From a virus: a DNA stretch of 20,161 nucleotides. This document shows positions 4,493-19,458 of the stretch, in pieces. Position numbers and translations under genes: made by a program. Under the pieces are notes generated by a model that saw nothing but the letters and a program-made list of their open reading frames with translations, did no database searches and was not told the DNA's origin. The first letter of the stretch is position 1; every line of letters begins with the position of its first letter. Location: IMG/VR virus record IMGVR_UViG_3300031227_006873, positions 1-20,161 of that record; one strand, 5' to 3'.

Positions 4493-4510
4493 TAGAAGCG
4501 GAGGTTGACC

Positions 4511-5299
4511 ATGGCGAGTGCACAGGGCCGGAAGCGGTGTACTGGTTGTGGTAAGACCAAGGCACTGCAAGCGTTTCACAAGCATAAAGGACGAAAAGAT
4601 GGAAGGAACTCGCAGTGCAAGAACTGTCGCGTGATACAAACTCGTGACTACTATGCAGCTCATTTCGAGCAGTGTGTTGCGTATGCTAAGGAGTACCGAG
4701 CAACACACACTGAGGCCATAAGAGAAGCAAAGCGCAGTTACCGTGCAAAGCACTTGGAGGAGCGCAGGGCTGCAGAGCGCTGTAACGCTGCGAAACATCG
4801 GAAAGAGAATAACGCGTATTGTCGCGCTTGGTATAAGGCCAACAGCGAGAAGTGCCGTGCGAATGCTCGACGCTATCGGAAAGCCGACCCGAAGAAATGT
4901 CAGGAAACGGTTTGTAAGTGCCGTGCCGCAAAGCCAGAGAAGTACAAGAAGCTAGCGAGGGCAGCTACGCGAGTGCGAAGGGCGCGAAAACACTCCATCG
5001 GCGAGTGTTTCACGGGTGCCATGGAAGCCTTCATGCGCAACTTTTGGCTGCATGAGTGTGCGCTCTGTGGTAGCGAGGTTAGCCTTTGTGCAGATCATTG
5101 GCTACCGCTTTCAAAGGGACACGCACTGGCGATGGACAACGCCGTTCTACTCTGTCATTCGTGTAACAGCCGCAAGGGAGCTACGCTGCCAAGTGCCTTC
5201 CTCGACCACGCGACTGTTGTCCGTATCGAGCGGAAGTTGCAGAAGCAGGCTGCTGCGTGGGAATTATCGCAGAGCGTAACAGCGGAGGTGGGCCTATGA
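4511..5299 (+). CDS. HNH endonuclease with N-terminal zinc finger, likely homing enzyme
   Basis: A 262-aa basic protein; ATG at 4511 with GCGGAGG six bases upstream. Residues 10-39 form a zinc finger (C10, C13, C36, C39) in the CxxCG...F..C..C style common at the N-terminus of phage HNH proteins. Residues 40-140 are an imperfect repeat of short basic units (Y..A.H.E, RYRKADPKK), probably a DNA-contacting arm. The HNH domain is at about 183-223: C183/C186, ADHWLPLSKG (D195, H196), N210, and CHSCNSRKG (C215, C218, N219). This matches the zinc-bound treble-clef nuclease fold that makes double-strand breaks or nicks. It lies between the exonuclease and resolvase genes and ends in an ATGA overlap with the latter. 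A free-standing homing endonuclease is the likeliest role; a packaging or recombination nuclease is the alternative. Confidence 0.88.
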   Translation: MASAQGRKRCTGCGKTKALQAFHKHKGRKDGRNSQCKNCRVIQTRDYYAAHFEQCVAYAKEYRATHTEAIREAKRSYRAKHLEERRAAERCNAAKHRKENNAYCRAWYKANSEKCRANARRYRKADPKKCQETVCKCRAAKPEKYKKLARAATRVRRARKHSIGECFTGAMEAFMRNFWLHECALCGSEVSLCADHWLPLSKGHALAMDNAVLLCHSCNSRKGATLPSAFLDHATVVRIERKLQKQAAAWELSQSVTAEVGL

Positions 5300-11972: not shown

Positions 11973-12512
11973 ATGCCGGATCAGACACAGCAGGAGCCGA
12001 CGATCGTAGAGGCGCTGAAGCGCCTACGCAGGATCGAGAAGAAGATCACTTCCAACAACGCGGAAGTGACACGCTACGCGTCAGGTCTCTCGTCGCGCAA
12101 GCCGCTCTTCGACACCGAGGACAAGCAGTTGCAGGAGGTGAAGAGCCTCACGCAGTCGTCGGTGGATCTCGTGCAGGAGTACCTCAAGCTGAAGCGCCGT
12201 ATCGATCTGACCAATCTCGCGATCACGGTCGATATCGAGGGCCAGAGGCGGACGATCGCCGAGTGGCTCATCGTCAAACGGAAAACCGCCGATCTCATGA
12301 TCGGTGTCTTCTCGGCACTGGATGACAGTGCCGCGAATGCCGCGCGCCGCGAGGACCGCATGTTCTCCGGCGAGGGCAAGACGCCGCAGGTCGTGCGGTA
12401 CTACAAGGAAGAAGCGAAGATGAAGGAACTTCGCAGCTGGCAGGACGTGAAGGAAGCGATCGACGGGCGGCTGGAGGTCGTGAACGCGACCACGTCGCTC
12501 GTCGCTGAGTAG
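11973..12512 (+). CDS. Helical coiled-coil protein, possibly DIP1984-like
   Basis: A 179-aa protein; ATG at 11973 with CAGGAGG about five bases upstream. It appears almost wholly alpha-helical: an N-terminal helix (IVEALKRLRRIEKKI), a middle one (TEDKQLQEVKSLTQSSVDLVQEYLKLKRRIDLTN) and a third (IAEWLIVKRKTADLMIGVFSAL). The order of a helix, a short polar break, a long helix ending in 'RIDLTN' and another helix recalls the DIP1984/septicolysin-like helical-bundle family, but I recall that pattern only loosely. It lies just upstream of the structured RNA region, and its stop is followed by a ribosome-site-like AAAAGGAG without a convincing gene. Structural or scaffolding roles are possible. Confidence 0.7.
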   Translation: MPDQTQQEPTIVEALKRLRRIEKKITSNNAEVTRYASGLSSRKPLFDTEDKQLQEVKSLTQSSVDLVQEYLKLKRRIDLTNLAITVDIEGQRRTIAEWLIVKRKTADLMIGVFSALDDSAANAARREDRMFSGEGKTPQVVRYYKEEAKMKELRSWQDVKEAIDGRLEVVNATTSLVAE

Positions 12513-12540
12513 AAAAGGAGACCTTGCGTAGCGTAAAAAC

Positions 12541-13217
12541 GGGACAAGGAGCTTCGGCTCCGACAGAGACCCTCGCCGGGGGTTTGTACCGGTAAACAGC
12601 CAATTACAAAGATCAGAGCTGCCATGAAAGCTACTCTATATCTTTCAAGGTTGAAGGTTCAAGCATTCAAGTATCACTCGGTGCCCACCGAGGGTAAACC
12701 TAGGGCATTTCAAGCTTCAGCCAACCCGGGACACCGGGGTGAAGGATCAAGGTTTGGGGCATTAGCCCGGAAAAATCCGGATCCTGTAGTGTGCGCCTCT
12801 GTCCGCTTCCGATCTACAGCCGGCTGTTACGTACAGGTCTTAACATATTCTCTCATGGGACGGGGCGTCCGGGTAACCGGGTGAGAGGGCTTGTCCTAAG
12901 CTAGCCCTCTTGAGTTGAAGCGTTCCCGTCCCAGTTTTTGGAGGACTGCCCTGCCGGTGATGTGAGCATATAATCCGGCGTGAAACTCTGACTGGCTCAC
13001 GCGAAGAGCATCCCGCCACGGGGGTGGGGCCAACTAAGGGGCAAGCAGTCCTCTGCTAAGTAGCCGGTAGCTTCTACTGCAACTCCGCTGTGGTACCGGG
13101 GCGCCCAGCCCTGCGGAGGAGCTGGTTCCCGTCTCGGGATACGAAGTTACCGACGGAGAAGGAGCGCACAGTCGATACGACCTCACATGGAGGTCGTTCG
13201 CCGCGCTCCTTTCTTTT
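12541..13217 (+). ncRNA. Large ornate structured noncoding RNA candidate
   Basis: About 680 nt without a credible gene but full of perfect helices. From 5' to 3': a UUCG-capped hairpin (12548-12561); TGAAAG/CTTTCA (12625-12647); an H-type pseudoknot in which stem CTCGG/CCGAG (12677-12692) has loop TGCCC paired to GGGCA (12703-12707); GGGC/GCCC and CCGGA/TCCGG (12757-12780); CCTGTA/TACAGG (12783-12837); a 9-bp long-range helix (12856-12864/12925-12933) enclosing a GUAA tetraloop hairpin (12869-12880) and a 7-bp hairpin (12884-12910); a 9-bp long-range helix GAGGACTGC/GCAGTCCTC (12941-12949/13045-13053); inside it a possible pseudoknot; then a kissing contact CCGGTA/TACCGG (13064-13069/13094-13099). 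It ends in a terminator-like hairpin. The size and tertiary style recall phage-borne GOLLD and ROOL RNAs, but I cannot assign a family by eye. No promoter is seen at the 5' end. Confidence 0.75.
13159..13217 (+). terminator. Terminator-like 3' end of the structured RNA
   Basis: A 9-bp outer stem AAGGAGCGC (13159-13167) / GCGCTCCTT (13203-13211) encloses a 7-bp hairpin CGACCTC/GAGGTCG (13178-13184/13190-13196). It is followed directly by TCTTTT. It marks the end of the RNA and separates it from the promoter at 13227. Confidence 0.75.
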
Positions 13218-13226
13218 GCTATCGGC

Positions 13227-13254
13227 TTGACACGAGTTCCGACAACTGTACGAT
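13227..13254 (+). promoter_or_regulatory. Sigma70-type promoter before the 327-aa gene
   Basis: A perfect -35 TTGACA (13227-13232) and a -10 TACGAT (13249-13254, four of six) are separated by 16 bases. It lies immediately after the terminator and 26 bases before the start codon at 13280. This is the best-looking promoter in the window. Confidence 0.7.
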
Positions 13255-14530: not shown

Positions 14531-17500
14531 ATGGCCGACTCGCTGAATGTCTTCCCGAGCATGCCTAGTGGTGGGGCTAGCACTCCCGGAACCGCTAATG
14601 CTTTCCCCGATCCCTTCTTCGACTATTCTTCGACTCAGATGCCTCGCAGTCTTTACGACGTGTTGAGGTGGTGTTTTGTACCCGGTACGCCGGTGCAGAT
14701 GGCTGATGGCTCGTTGAAGGCGATCGAGGATGTACGTGTTGGCGATGTCGTGCTGAATCGTTTCGGCGAGGCGGCACGAGTGAATGTTGCCAGTACGCGA
14801 CCGTGGGATGACATGATTGTCAGTGTTGAGACCGTAGATGGCAATGCCGCTGCGGTCGAGAGCATCCCTGATCACGAACATTTTGTGGTGCGCGCACCAC
14901 GACTGAAACCTAATCGCTGTATCTACGCGCTCAAGCCAGACAAGATCGAAAAGGTGAAAGCACGGGATATCCGTGTCGGCGACTACCTCGTGGCACCGCA
15001 GGCAAAGCTGGAAGACGGAGAGAAGCCTGCGGTCGATCCGTACGTTGCTGGCACGTATCTCGGCGACGGGTGGGTTTGTCAGCGGTACAAGGGTGTTGGC
15101 GGCCGTGATGACCGGACATGGCAGGACACCGGCGAGCATTACGCGACGCGATTCATCTTCTCACCCGAGGCGTATGAATCTGTGGCGCGTGTGGCGGCGG
15201 CAGGGCTGAAGTTGGTGCCGACAACAGATCCAAACAGCGGCGCCGCAATGGTATACACATGCCATGACTACGCGCTGACGGATGATCTTAAAGCGCTGTG
15301 CGGGCGTGGTGCGCGTACGAAGCGCCTCAGTGATTGTGTCTATGGCTGGTCGCGTGATGAAGTACTGGAATTCGTCGCGGGATACGTCGACTCGGACGGA
15401 TGTTTGATCAAGAACGGCACGAACACACGCGGTGTCGTGATCACGTCCTGCAATAGGAATCTGCTACTACAGGTTCGCCGGCTGTGTAACGCTGCCGGAA
15501 TGACACCGACGCTCGCAGGTGGCGAGATCGACGGCGGCGGCGGTCTCGTTCCTGAGGGTCGCTACGAGAAGTACACGCTGTTCTTCAACTGGTACAACAT
15601 GCAGCCGCTCGTTGCACACAGTGAGAAGTTGAAGAAGGCGACAATCGGTGCGTGTGGTAAGGGGAAGACGCAGTCGGTCGTGATCAAGGGCGGGGTCGTC
15701 TATCGCCGCGTGCGCACAATCAATGAACAACCATACTCAGGCAGTGTACACAATCTTGAGATCGAAGGCGAACACAGTTACATAACTTGTGACTGTGCAA
15801 CGAGTAACTGCGAATTCGTTTGGATGACCAACGGAACTTATCGCACAGCCTGCCAGCGCATTGTCCGCTACTTCCTCACGACGATCGAACTGAACGACAT
15901 CGGCGACGATGAGAAGGTGAAGTACAAGGAGTTCCTCGAAAAGCAGGCGAAGATGATCGACACTCTCGCCTACGTCGGGGACGACTGGATATGTCTCCAT
16001 GGTGATACGAAGGCTGTGACACGTGACGGTATCTTCACGCTTCGTGAGCTGAAGGGAAAGACGGTAGATGTCCTTTCACAGGACGGCGTGTATCGTTCAG
16101 CGGAATTCAAGTCGTTTGGGCGGCAGGAACTACTCGAAGTTGAGTTCAGCGATGGCCGTACAGTACTCGCTACCCCTGAGCACCAGTGGGTCGCCAAGAA
16201 TTGTTCTGGGAAGCTAACTCGCGTACCCACGACTCAGCTCACCGAGGGCTATCGCGTACCTCGCGTAGCAGCGCCGCGCCCCGAGCAGAATGACAAATTC
16301 TTTGAGGGAGTAAGGCACGGCTTCACATTCGGTGATGGCTCTATCTACAACCGTGATCGAAAGACGCCAAGGGCTGAAGCTACGTTCTTTGGCGACAAAG
16401 ATGCGGAGATGCTGAAGCATTTCGAGGGTCACGGTGGCAAGCCTGTTTCAGACGAGGCTACGCAGTCGGTAACAATCTTCGGGCTGCCGGCACACTACAA
16501 GCAACTGCCCTTCAATACGTGCAGTGCCAGTTATTGGTATGGATTCGTCTGCGGTTTTCTGGCTGCTGACGGCTCGGTGGATGTGTATGGCTGTGCTATC
16601 CTGACGCAAAAGGCCAAGGCTACACTAGCGGCGATAGTCGATCAACTTCCGCGTATTGGAATGAGCGCGGGGCTGCTTCGAGGACACGAACGAACTTCAC
16701 GGTTCGAACGGCGAGATGGACGTGTGGACGTCTACACCGGCATCATGCATTACGTGACGTTGCTCAAGCAGTACATGCTTCCGCAAGACTTCTTGCTCTC
16801 GAAGCATCGCGTAAATTTCGAGCAGAACTACAGTCCCACAAACTATGGCGAGTTCATAGGCATTCGTGATGTGCGTGAGACCGGCATCGTCGATGAGGTT
16901 TTCTGTTGCGTTGAGGAAGAAACGAACACCTTCGCTATTGAGGGAGGCATACTCACCGGAAATTGTTATGGAAATGCATTTGTGTCCGTGCGCATTCCGT
17001 TCCGGCGTCACCTGCGCTGTCCGAAGTGCCACCAAGAGCGCGCGCTCAAGCACATCAACTATTCGTTCCAGAACTGGAGCTTCATCGCGACGTGCTCGAA
17101 CTGTAACTACAAGGGCAAGTTCGAGCGCATCGACCGGCGGAGCATCGAGCAGGACAAGATCAAGCTCATCCGTTGGTCGCCGCATGAAATGCGGATGCTC
17201 CACCATCCCATCTCTCACAACACGGTCTACTATTGGATCCCGACAGCGAATTTCAAGCGCGAGATTCGCAAGGGCAACAAGTTCTACATCGAGTCGACTC
17301 CGTGGGAGATCATCGAGGCAATCAAGAAGGACCAGTGGTTCAAGTTCAATCCCGACATCATCTACCACATGAAAGAAGAGACGCTGGCCGGGATTCGTAA
17401 CGCCGGCTGGGGCATCCCCCGGCTGATGGCGAACTTCAAGCAGGCGTGGTACGTGCAGGTGCTGAAGAGGTACAACGAGGCCATTGGTCTCGACTACATC

Positions 17501-18541
17501 ATTCCGTTCCGTGTGATCACGCCAGCGAAGGGGCCGGGGTCCGGCGAATCCGACCCGCTGCTCCACATGAACATCGGCTCGTTCAACAGCAAAGTCATGG
17601 GCATGATCCGCAAGCATCGACGTGACCCCGCGACGTGGAATGCACTGCCGTTCCCGATTCAGTACCAAGCGCTCGGCGGCGAAGGCAAGGATCTCGCGCC
17701 ACACGAACTGATTACGCAGGGCGTCGATGATATGCTCAATGCAATGGGCTTCCCCGCCGAGATGTTCAAGGGTACGTTGCAGGTGCAAGCTGCGCCGATG
17801 GCACTGCGCCTGTTCGAGCGTACGTGGACTCACTACGTGTCCGCGCAGAACGGACTGATCGACTGGTTCTTCGAGGCGGTTACCGACTTGCTGAGCTGGG
17901 AGCGGGCGGAAGGGCGACTGCAGCCGGTTACTCTTGCCGAGGACATCGAGAAGAAGCAGATCCAGTTGCAGCTCGCAGCCGCACAGCAGATATCCAAGCA
18001 GACAGCGTACGCTCCGTTCGGTATCGACTGGCGTGCTGAAGTTGAGCGCCAGTTCGATGAGGAGAAGTATTATCAGGACGCAACGGCTCGGTTCCAAAAA
18101 GAGCAGGCCCGCGCGCAAGAAATGGAGCAGACTTTCGAGCAAGCAGACCAAGCAGTAGCTCAACCGCCGGGCGGCGCGCCAATGGATCCTGCGGCCATGG
18201 CTGCTGGCGGCGGTGCTCCTGCGGCTGCCGGCGGGATGCCTCCGGGCGGCGCACCTCCGGGCGGCGCTCCTGCGGGCGGCGCTCCTGCAGGTGGCATAGC
18301 GCTTCCGGCCGGTGGAGCAGGTACTACACCTCAGGATATGCTCGCTCAGGCAGAACAAATCGCTTTACAACTTCTCGGAACTCCCTACGAGTCACGCAAG
18401 TCAGAGATGCTCAAGATTAAGAAAGCCGACGAAACCCTTCATGCTTTGGTCGTGCAAAAAATCGAAGATATTCGCCAGAAAGCAAAGCAGCAAGGGGGCT
18501 TCCAAGCGCTGCAGTCCATGGTTGGCGGGCAGGCGTCGTGA
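14531..18541 (+). CDS. Phage portal protein precursor with two inteins
   Basis: A 1336-aa precursor that would splice to a 633-aa portal protein. The portal forms the ring at the capsid vertex through which DNA is packaged and ejected. Extein support: the N-terminal CEFVWMTNGTYRTACQRIVRYF segment, the YGNAF motif (813-817), and the late segment MGFPAEMFKGTLQVQAAPMALRLFE (1072-1096), all of which I associate with large-phage portal proteins. Between them lies a zinc ribbon, CPKC (C830, C833) and CSNC (C855, C858). Intein 1 covers residues 48-426 and intein 2 residues 488-811. The C-terminal 130 residues are coiled coil, then Gly/Ala/Pro repeats (1211-1264), then a helix. ATG at 14531; the ribosome site is weak (AGGCGG). 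The stop overlaps the GIY-YIG start (GTGA). The portal identity comes from remembered motifs, not a search. Confidence 0.85.
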   Translation: MADSLNVFPSMPSGGASTPGTANAFPDPFFDYSSTQMPRSLYDVLRWCFVPGTPVQMADGSLKAIEDVRVGDVVLNRFGEAARVNVASTRPWDDMIVSVETVDGNAAAVESIPDHEHFVVRAPRLKPNRCIYALKPDKIEKVKARDIRVGDYLVAPQAKLEDGEKPAVDPYVAGTYLGDGWVCQRYKGVGGRDDRTWQDTGEHYATRFIFSPEAYESVARVAAAGLKLVPTTDPNSGAAMVYTCHDYALTDDLKALCGRGARTKRLSDCVYGWSRDEVLEFVAGYVDSDGCLIKNGTNTRGVVITSCNRNLLLQVRRLCNAAGMTPTLAGGEIDGGGGLVPEGRYEKYTLFFNWYNMQPLVAHSEKLKKATIGACGKGKTQSVVIKGGVVYRRVRTINEQPYSGSVHNLEIEGEHSYITCDCATSNCEFVWMTNGTYRTACQRIVRYFLTTIELNDIGDDEKVKYKEFLEKQAKMIDTLAYVGDDWICLHGDTKAVTRDGIFTLRELKGKTVDVLSQDGVYRSAEFKSFGRQELLEVEFSDGRTVLATPEHQWVAKNCSGKLTRVPTTQLTEGYRVPRVAAPRPEQNDKFFEGVRHGFTFGDGSIYNRDRKTPRAEATFFGDKDAEMLKHFEGHGGKPVSDEATQSVTIFGLPAHYKQLPFNTCSASYWYGFVCGFLAADGSVDVYGCAILTQKAKATLAAIVDQLPRIGMSAGLLRGHERTSRFERRDGRVDVYTGIMHYVTLLKQYMLPQDFLLSKHRVNFEQNYSPTNYGEFIGIRDVRETGIVDEVFCCVEEETNTFAIEGGILTGNCYGNAFVSVRIPFRRHLRCPKCHQERALKHINYSFQNWSFIATCSNCNYKGKFERIDRRSIEQDKIKLIRWSPHEMRMLHHPISHNTVYYWIPTANFKREIRKGNKFYIESTPWEIIEAIKKDQWFKFNPDIIYHMKEETLAGIRNAGWGIPRLMANFKQAWYVQVLKRYNEAIGLDYIIPFRVITPAKGPGSGESDPLLHMNIGSFNSKVMGMIRKHRRDPATWNALPFPIQYQALGGEGKDLAPHELITQGVDDMLNAMGFPAEMFKGTLQVQAAPMALRLFERTWTHYVSAQNGLIDWFFEAVTDLLSWERAEGRLQPVTLAEDIEKKQIQLQLAAAQQISKQTAYAPFGIDWRAEVERQFDEEKYYQDATARFQKEQARAQEMEQTFEQADQAVAQPPGGAPMDPAAMAAGGGAPAAAGGMPPGGAPPGGAPAGGAPAGGIALPAGGAGTTPQDMLAQAEQIALQLLGTPYESRKSEMLKIKKADETLHALVVQKIEDIRQKAKQQGGFQALQSMVGGQAS
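14672..15808 (+). mobile_element. Intein 1 in the portal gene, with LAGLIDADG endonuclease motifs
   Basis: 379 residues in frame. Block A starts at C48 (CFVPGTPVQMADGS), block B is SIPDHEHF (111-118), block F is VHNLEIEGEHSYIT (406-419) and the C-terminal block G is ATSN followed by the +1 Cys (N426 | C427). The central region carries two LAGLIDADG-type motifs, VAGTYLGDG (172-180) and FVAGYVDSDG (281-290), the pair expected of a single-chain homing endonuclease. Both acidic residues are present, so it may still be active. The penultimate residue is Ser and not His. The insertion site is after RW and before CEFVWMTNG in the extein. Confidence 0.93.
15992..16963 (+). mobile_element. Intein 2 in the portal gene, with LAGLIDADG endonuclease motifs
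   Basis: 324 residues in frame. It begins at C488 (CLHGDTKAVTRDG), with block B LATPEHQW (546-553), block F VFCCVEEETNTFAIEGGIL (790-808) and the end TGN | C (N811 | C812). Two LAGLIDADG-like motifs are visible: GFTFGDG (597-603) and GFVCGFLAADG (671-681). The penultimate residue is Gly and not His. The site lies directly before CYGNAF, a portal signature. The two inteins show no obvious sequence similarity beyond shared blocks, so they probably arrived independently. Confidence 0.93.
18239..18298 (+). repeat. 15-bp tandem repeat coding PPGGA/PAGGA units
   Basis: Four consecutive five-residue units (PPGGA, PPGGA, PAGGA, PAGGI) near the C-terminus of the portal protein. They lie within a longer Gly/Ala/Pro-rich segment at 18161-18322. 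Likely a flexible linker that can vary in length by slippage. Confidence 0.85.
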
Positions 18542-19458
18542 GTGTCTTCATCTACGGTCTACGTGATCCGCGCGACGGGCTTATTAAGTATGCTGGAAAG
18601 ACAAACAACTTAGTTCTACGTGCGCGCGGGCATAAAAGCGAGCGCTCTGGTACTCGAAAATGTAACTGGGTGCAGAAGCTCTTGCGGCTGGGGATGAAGC
18701 CTATCCGTCTCATTCTCTCTGAGTTGCCAGATTCGTCTGACTGGCAAAGTATTGAGCGTCTGTGGATTAAGACGCTCCGTGATTTTGGCTGCGGACTATT
18801 GAACGCAACTGACGGCGGTGACGGGCGCGAGAACGTTGTTGTAACCGAGGAGACTCGACAGAAGATACGTGAGGCGCGCGCACGTCAGCCGGTGTCAGAG
18901 AAGGCAATCAAGGCTATGGCTGCGGCGAACCGTGGAAAGAAGCAAAGTTCTGAGACACGCAAGAAGATGCAGCAGGCCGCCATCCGTCGAGAGGCAAAAA
19001 AGCAGGCAGCGGGTTTTGTTGTGAGTGAAGCTACGCGTGCGAAGTTGAGTGCTGCGTGGCATGCTAGCGCTGCCGCTGCAACCCATCTTCAGCAGATGCA
19101 GGAGAACCTCCGCGGTAAGAAACGGCCGGAGGCAACGAAAGAGAAACTTCGCCGGGCGCACATTGGCAGGAAGCATACTGCGGCCACGTGCAAGCGAATG
19201 AGCGACGCGCACAAGGGAAAGCCGATCCCGCCCGAGCAGCGACAGAAGATCAGCGCGGCCCTGAAGGGGCGTGTCATAAGCGCAGAGCATCGTGCTAAGA
19301 TAGCAGCTGCCGGTAAGGGGCATCCCGTACATGTAGCAACTGGACGAAAACGAGGTCTTGCGAACCGCGGACGCAAAGCTAGTTCCGTTACGCGCACCAA
19401 AATGTGCGCTGCACAGCAACGACGGAGACAGCGCGAACAACTTCTCACAGTGGCCTAG
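18538..19458 (+). CDS. GIY-YIG homing endonuclease with NUMOD3-type repeats
   Basis: A 306-aa protein starting at GTG 18538 in a GTGA overlap with the portal stop. The nuclease domain is residues 1-95: FIYGL (4-8) and KYAGKT (17-22) are the GIY and YIG strands, R28/R30 follow, E73 in SIERLWI is the expected metal-binding Glu, and LNATDGGDG (88-96) is the conserved end of this subfamily. Residues 100-290 hold at least five copies of a short basic helix motif (for example PEATKEKLRRAHIG, SAEHRAKIAAAGKG), matching the NUMOD3 DNA-binding repeats of phage homing enzymes. It is long for a GIY-YIG because of these repeats. Its place directly after the portal gene and before an unrelated gene fits a free-standing invader. 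Confidence 0.92.
   Translation: MSVFIYGLRDPRDGLIKYAGKTNNLVLRARGHKSERSGTRKCNWVQKLLRLGMKPIRLILSELPDSSDWQSIERLWIKTLRDFGCGLLNATDGGDGRENVVVTEETRQKIREARARQPVSEKAIKAMAAANRGKKQSSETRKKMQQAAIRREAKKQAAGFVVSEATRAKLSAAWHASAAAATHLQQMQENLRGKKRPEATKEKLRRAHIGRKHTAATCKRMSDAHKGKPIPPEQRQKISAALKGRVISAEHRAKIAAAGKGHPVHVATGRKRGLANRGRKASSVTRTKMCAAQQRRRQREQLLTVA

Follow-up and report, generated by a model that had tools for sequence, protein, structure and literature searches.

A structured RNA beside a DUF6847-like gene in uncultured, mostly giant bacteriophages and its possible role as a ribonucleoprotein scaffold

The window (the whole stretch of DNA analysed here, 20,161 bases) is the full IMG/VR record IMGVR_UViG_3300031227_006873. 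It carries a portal-type gene that two intein-like insertions interrupt, together with homing endonucleases and a RuvC-like resolvase, and probably represents one piece of a jumbo-phage genome, because close relatives of the portal were found on contigs of up to 211 kb. Both insertions in the portal-type gene (14531-18541) are in-frame; Hint/LAGLIDADG matches were obtained for the first, and a Cys start and an Asn-Cys end were read by eye for both. A GIY-YIG/NUMOD3 homing endonuclease gene (18538-19458) overlaps the end of the portal gene and, with an HNH endonuclease gene (4505-5299), makes for a heavy load of homing elements.

A gene for a DUF6847-like protein (179 aa) lies at 11973-12512 (plus strand, as for all features of the RNA region given below); it is the conserved partner of the RNA described here. 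The protein matched Pfam DUF6847 at E 1.2e-4 (22.5 bits, under the curated cut-off of 27) and PHROG 1491 at E 8.7e-9. Relatives were found at 47 IMG/VR loci by profile search, and 23 of 41 relatives matched Pfam DUF6847 at E≤0.01 (best E 2e-8). The AF2 model (pLDDT 94.4) is almost all helical, and its sole fold match was 3kdq, an uncharacterised Corynebacterium protein (E 1.9e-3). The window protein is not markedly basic (31 K+R vs 29 D+E). A PDB sequence search with the protein profile gave no significant match, and no match was obtained by tblastn of four DUF6847-like proteins against INPHARED phages.

The core RNA (12513-12842, about 330 nt; group A, see below) begins at the stop codon of this gene. 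In the first-pass annotation the RNA was taken to start at 12541; that limit was set too far downstream, since the 5′ strand of the closing helix (12520-12532) lies before it. The single object of about 680 nt that had been proposed at 12541-13217 is instead a composite of most of the core and an accessory domain, a division made because a tRNA-Met gene follows the first part in the related loci L002 and L003. The region 12513-13220 folds better than dinucleotide shuffles (z = -4.15); the core alone gave z = -3.15 and 12843-13217 gave z = -4.94. The earlier view that the region holds no plausible gene was upheld: no reading frame is kept, an 86-aa ORF at 12624 is lost in the gapped alignment (A6), the gaps are numerous enough to break any frame, the helices covary and no downstream protein recurs.

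Loci were gathered by core-motif pattern scans of IMG/VR and by profile searches with the DUF6847-like protein, and the 3′ flanks were inspected. The core was found 3′ of the DUF6847-like gene in 18 loci that can be aligned with the window (group A; a few are mutually close). A further 18 loci (group B) have a diverged form of it there, with GAGAUAAAAACCGG at the 5′ end, a YAAG array and a 3′ GGCUUCC. Many of the loci are on jumbo-phage contigs, and the carriers of the RNA are many uncultured, mostly giant bacteriophages. The RNA directly follows the stop codon in most loci; other sequence lies between in L156, L163, L181 and L161. A small ORF with a start that by eye resembles a signal peptide is found between gene and RNA in L156 (6538-6960), and an ORF just 3′ of the RNA in L110 (6020-6800) has a TnpB-type resemblance, by eye only. 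No recognisable RNA was found in five loci with the DUF6847-like gene (L168, L169, L173, L174 and L175); a tmRNA gene stands in its place at L174 (6643-7114) and L175 (5522-5950), in both cases a phage tmRNA gene directly after the DUF6847-like gene.

A model of the 3′ domain (R1) recovered its own group-A sites at E 4e-15 to 4e-7 and matched the window, which is included in the model, at E 9.8e-10. Seven of the eight matched contigs hold one site per genome; the eighth has one extra weak match. R1 gave nothing convincing on 750 kb of other loci and no group-B match at E≤1, and the link between groups A and B consists in synteny and a common architecture only. The first pattern scan yielded mostly chance matches, with real sites only at L003 and L013/L059; L053/L087, suggested by blastn, were discarded on inspection, and the last IMG/VR pattern scan gave no new real site. 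Blastn searches against INPHARED phages returned nothing for the region or for the L120 and L116 cores, and only the tRNA matched when the L002 version was used. Genome scans of GTDB found nothing.

Covariation was assessed by a swap test, in which the pairing of each member's own 5′ and 3′ strands is compared with its pairing with the 3′ strands of other members; shared ancestry is uncorrected in all values that follow. The core is closed by helix P1 (12520-12532 with 12826-12839, placed by the swap test and alignment A6), for which own partners gave 416 vs 243 for swapped ones in group A (0/5000) and 388 vs 237 in group B (0/10000). An H-type pseudoknot had been proposed by the first-pass annotation, and it covaries in homologues, namely in 14 divergent members. 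Stem S1 pairs 12677-12681 with 12688-12692 (feature 12677-12692; 168 own vs 127 swapped, 0/10000), and stem S2 pairs the loop 12682-12686 with 12704-12708 (feature 12682-12708; 196 vs 144, 0/10000), which is one base off the partner given before (12703-12707); the test of the pseudoknot covered group A only. Unlike S2 helices occupy the same place in different members (UGCCC/GGGCA, UCUCC/GGAGA, UUGAAGG/CCUUCAA and CCGC/GCGG). The 3′ hairpin P5 (12777-12823; 12777-12780/12820-12823 and 12784-12789/12814-12819) gave 9/10000 in group A, the value used here (earlier, partly misplaced windows had given 0/5000). In group B it gave 121/10000 (P = 0.012) after the windows had been re-placed on inspection of the sequences, an earlier placement having given P = 0.34; this is weaker evidence than that for P1, because the windows were chosen after the sequences had been seen. 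Both tetraloops noticed before are present: a UUCG-capped hairpin (12548-12561; from sequence and alignment A6, in the window and L002 only) and a GUAA-capped hairpin.

The member cores are rich in YAAG motifs (248 copies in 32 cores, where 125 would be expected; z = 12.4), successive copies being separated by 7 (47 times), 8 (25), 14-16 (35) or 22-23 nt (12). The motif is scarce in the window itself (6 vs 4.2 expected), where CAAG/GAAG motifs lie 7-8 nt apart at 12646, 12653, 12660 and 12668 (12646-12671), with others at 12712, 12741 and 12748. A complete tRNA was called by ARAGORN in 11 of the 18 group-B RNAs, always at one fixed site between the 5′ strand and the repeat array and with varying identity (Ser, Ile, Met, Thr, Asn). 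In group A the tRNA, where present, lies 3′ of the core, and the region is often within a tRNA array; ARAGORN found no tRNA in the RNA region of the window. A putative anticodon-arm remnant in group A (seen in 4 of 16 loci where 0.8 would be expected; three of these four are close relatives) is not claimed. ARAGORN also called tRNA-Pyl genes (CUA anticodon) in the arrays around the RNA at L120 (8035-8112) and L159 (12050-12121), and these may be suppressor tRNAs.

A periodic array of a short motif, with variable tRNA cassettes at one site, could serve as a decoy or sponge, the YAAG motifs, and the tRNA where present, titrating a protein of the host, for example one that regulates post-transcriptionally or an anticodon nuclease of its defence. 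Sponges are not known to use this motif but others, for example GGA for CsrA, nothing links the RNA to defence, and the strict tie to the DUF6847-like gene would be left unexplained; we consider this role improbable.

The remainder of the region (12843-13217) is a lineage-specific accessory domain with terminator, common only to L002, which has the same region plus two large insertions; L003 has the first part. In L002 and L003 the tRNA-Met gene starts about 12 nt 3′ of the core part, and at its place the window has a three-way hairpin insert (12850-12935) in which no tRNA was found. The accessory structured domain proper (12936-13217) is 81-88% identical to L002, and three compensatory pairs were found within 13056-13217. 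The part at 12936-13055 is about 88% identical to L002 and shows no covariation; it may be a second structured RNA in its own right. Two perfect 9-bp helices had been reported, and both repeats exist (12856-12864/12925-12933 and 12941-12949/13045-13053), but neither is supported by covariation: the first, which sits in the three-way hairpin insert, has no homologue, and the second recurs in L002 with a bulge of one base. A third perfect 9-bp inverted repeat (13159-13167/13203-13211) forms the closing hairpin, which is followed by a T-run. The terminator-like end proposed before thus stands as a hairpin and T-run seen by eye, but was not called by the terminator scanner, the rule of which admitted loops of 3-8 only. 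A kissing contact proposed at 13064-13069/13094-13099 fits L002, but is explained equally well by a nested helix. A sigma-70-like promoter of the next gene (TTGACA-16-TACGAT, 13227-13254) lies outside the RNA, and its TTGACA is kept in L002 and L003.

The terminator-like hairpin that closes the window copy, the constant position of the RNA 3′ of the DUF6847-like gene on the same strand, and the tRNAs after or inside it (L002, L003, L160, L157 and group B) are what would be expected of a cis element that protects or regulates the DUF6847-like message, or of a processing platform that releases the following or embedded tRNAs. We regard such a role as unlikely: the structure far exceeds its needs, gene and RNA are separated by other sequence in L156, L163 and L181, and in several members there is no tRNA next to the RNA.

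The 617 ORFs that lie within 6 kb of the DUF6847-like gene at 39 loci include a single protein cluster that spans at least five loci, the DUF6847-like one (37 loci). Pattern scans that were blind to protein landed beside the DUF6847-like gene at all real sites (L003, L013/L059, L115/L121, L116, L120 and L122). This tight pairing with one gene suggests a new RNA-protein machine. The position before the portal, which had been thought notable, did not hold up as a conserved feature, the portal not being recurrent within 6 kb across the 39 loci. Four contigs with related portals (L006, L101, L102 and L103; 159-211 kb) gave neither an R1 match nor a DUF6847-like protein, with the reservation that they are perhaps incomplete and that R1 misses group B. 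Absence of the RNA from relatives without any compensating change had been named as a case against it; the DUF6847-like gene, too, is missing from the portal relatives without the RNA. A packaging RNA that acts on the adjacent portal, as phi29 pRNA does, would fit the start of the portal gene 1.3 kb downstream in the window; it is disfavoured, and indeed very improbable, with the portal missing from the conserved neighbours and the RNA missing from the large related-portal contigs.

The suggestion of a divergent GOLLD or ROOL RNA was not borne out, as neither model matched the window record or the tested RNA loci at E≤10. For GOLLD (RF02032, gathering score 150 bits), the window record and seven RNA-bearing contigs gave at E≤10 only one chance match of 7.5 bits far from the RNA; for ROOL (RF03087, gathering score 99.1 bits), there was none at the RNA loci and one 9.4-bit match elsewhere in a 277-kb contig. 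Rfam 15 at gathering score, OLE and HEARO included, returned nothing in the window and only tRNAs in the relatives, and permissive Rfam scans gave chance-level matches only, apart from tRNA. Group-I/II introns and HEARO, considered as candidates, had no Rfam support. The proposal of a large pseudoknotted phage RNA, possibly of a new class, is supported in that many relatives covary and Rfam has no match to the RNA; it is near-certainly a separate new class. No description was found in Rfam 15, INPHARED or the open-access literature (subscription journals and preprints being outside this scope). We regard the RNA class and the RNA-gene module as new, although in general style the RNA stands beside the ornate phage RNAs.

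OLE is a large, ornate RNA with dedicated protein partners. The new RNA is likewise large and ornate, and a partnership with a dedicated protein is proposed for it below; unlike OLE, which is from extremophile bacteria, it is from phage, and it has no Rfam match. The OLE partners are OapA and others (PMC12286853), and the DUF6847-like protein, predicted to be helical, shows no sign of an OLE partner family. With tmRNA it shares the place after the DUF6847-like gene (L174/L175) and the presence of a tRNA-like part, but the window has no ARAGORN or Rfam tmRNA call and shows neither a tag frame nor a tRNA-like end.

GOLLD is closer in its biology, as a large structured phage-borne RNA in tRNA arrays, and some GOLLD RNAs carry tRNAs in a linker (PMC12286853), much as tRNAs lie inside some relatives of the new RNA, though not in the window. 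ROOL occurs in phages or prophages, has pseudoknots and is often found close to tRNA islands (PMC12286853). In general style the new RNA resembles these two, with its phage origin, tRNA arrays and occasional carriage of a tRNA. The new RNA differs from GOLLD in being smaller, in being fixed to one protein gene and in its YAAG array of 7-8-nt period, and from ROOL in having about half the length, a protein-gene partner and, in group B, tRNAs inside. The main rival explanation is that an RNA-only particle, a cage or other oligomer, would self-assemble as GOLLD and ROOL do, perhaps enclosing or displaying a tRNA, and the gene linkage would reflect shared transcription only. The pseudoknots and extensive structure agree with it as well as the shared biology; the GOLLD and ROOL models are unmatched, the core is half their size, and no tie of GOLLD or ROOL to a single protein gene is described in PMC12286853, whereas the new RNA has one. 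We judge the RNA-only particle to be rather unlikely, and place it ahead of the cis element.

The computations show a conserved class of RNA that P1 closes and that has the pseudoknot (group A), the 3′ hairpin, the YAAG array of 7-8-nt period, a strict linkage to one protein family and, frequently, a tRNA. We propose, in a judgement that is evenly balanced, a two-part phage module in which the DUF6847-like gene and the structured RNA of about 300 nt 3′ of it on the same strand act together as a ribonucleoprotein scaffold; in it, we infer, protein would bind at the repeats, and the tRNA would be displayed or set free. The RNA would be cut out of the DUF6847 transcript, with the help of RNase P/Z cutting at tRNAs that flank it or lie within it, and would fold into a compact particle. 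Several copies of the DUF6847-like protein, or another oligomer, would bind one repeat each, and the RNA would be the scaffold of a ribonucleoprotein within the tRNA/translation programme of the phage, which in many phages may display or co-deliver a tRNA. This ribonucleoprotein reading is ranked first because it explains linkage, repeat period and tRNA cassette at once; the covariation of P1, S1, S2 and P5 and the single R1 sites are also counted for it. Counted against it are a protein that is not markedly basic, the few YAAG motifs in the window, the five gene loci without the RNA and the link between groups A and B by synteny. More tentatively, this may be a phage ribonucleoprotein of a new kind, in which the repeat array would be wrapped around a dedicated helical protein oligomer and would present a tRNA cassette that can be exchanged; during infection by jumbo phages it would act on translation or on a defence directed against tRNAs.

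Few large ornate RNAs are known from phages, and what they do is unsolved. The new RNA has a testable structure and an unusually obvious candidate protein partner, its single conserved neighbour, and this candidate opens a direct biochemical route to the question why giant phages have large structured RNAs among their tRNA genes. That the tRNA at the fixed site is interchangeable is a specific clue, which any account must explain.
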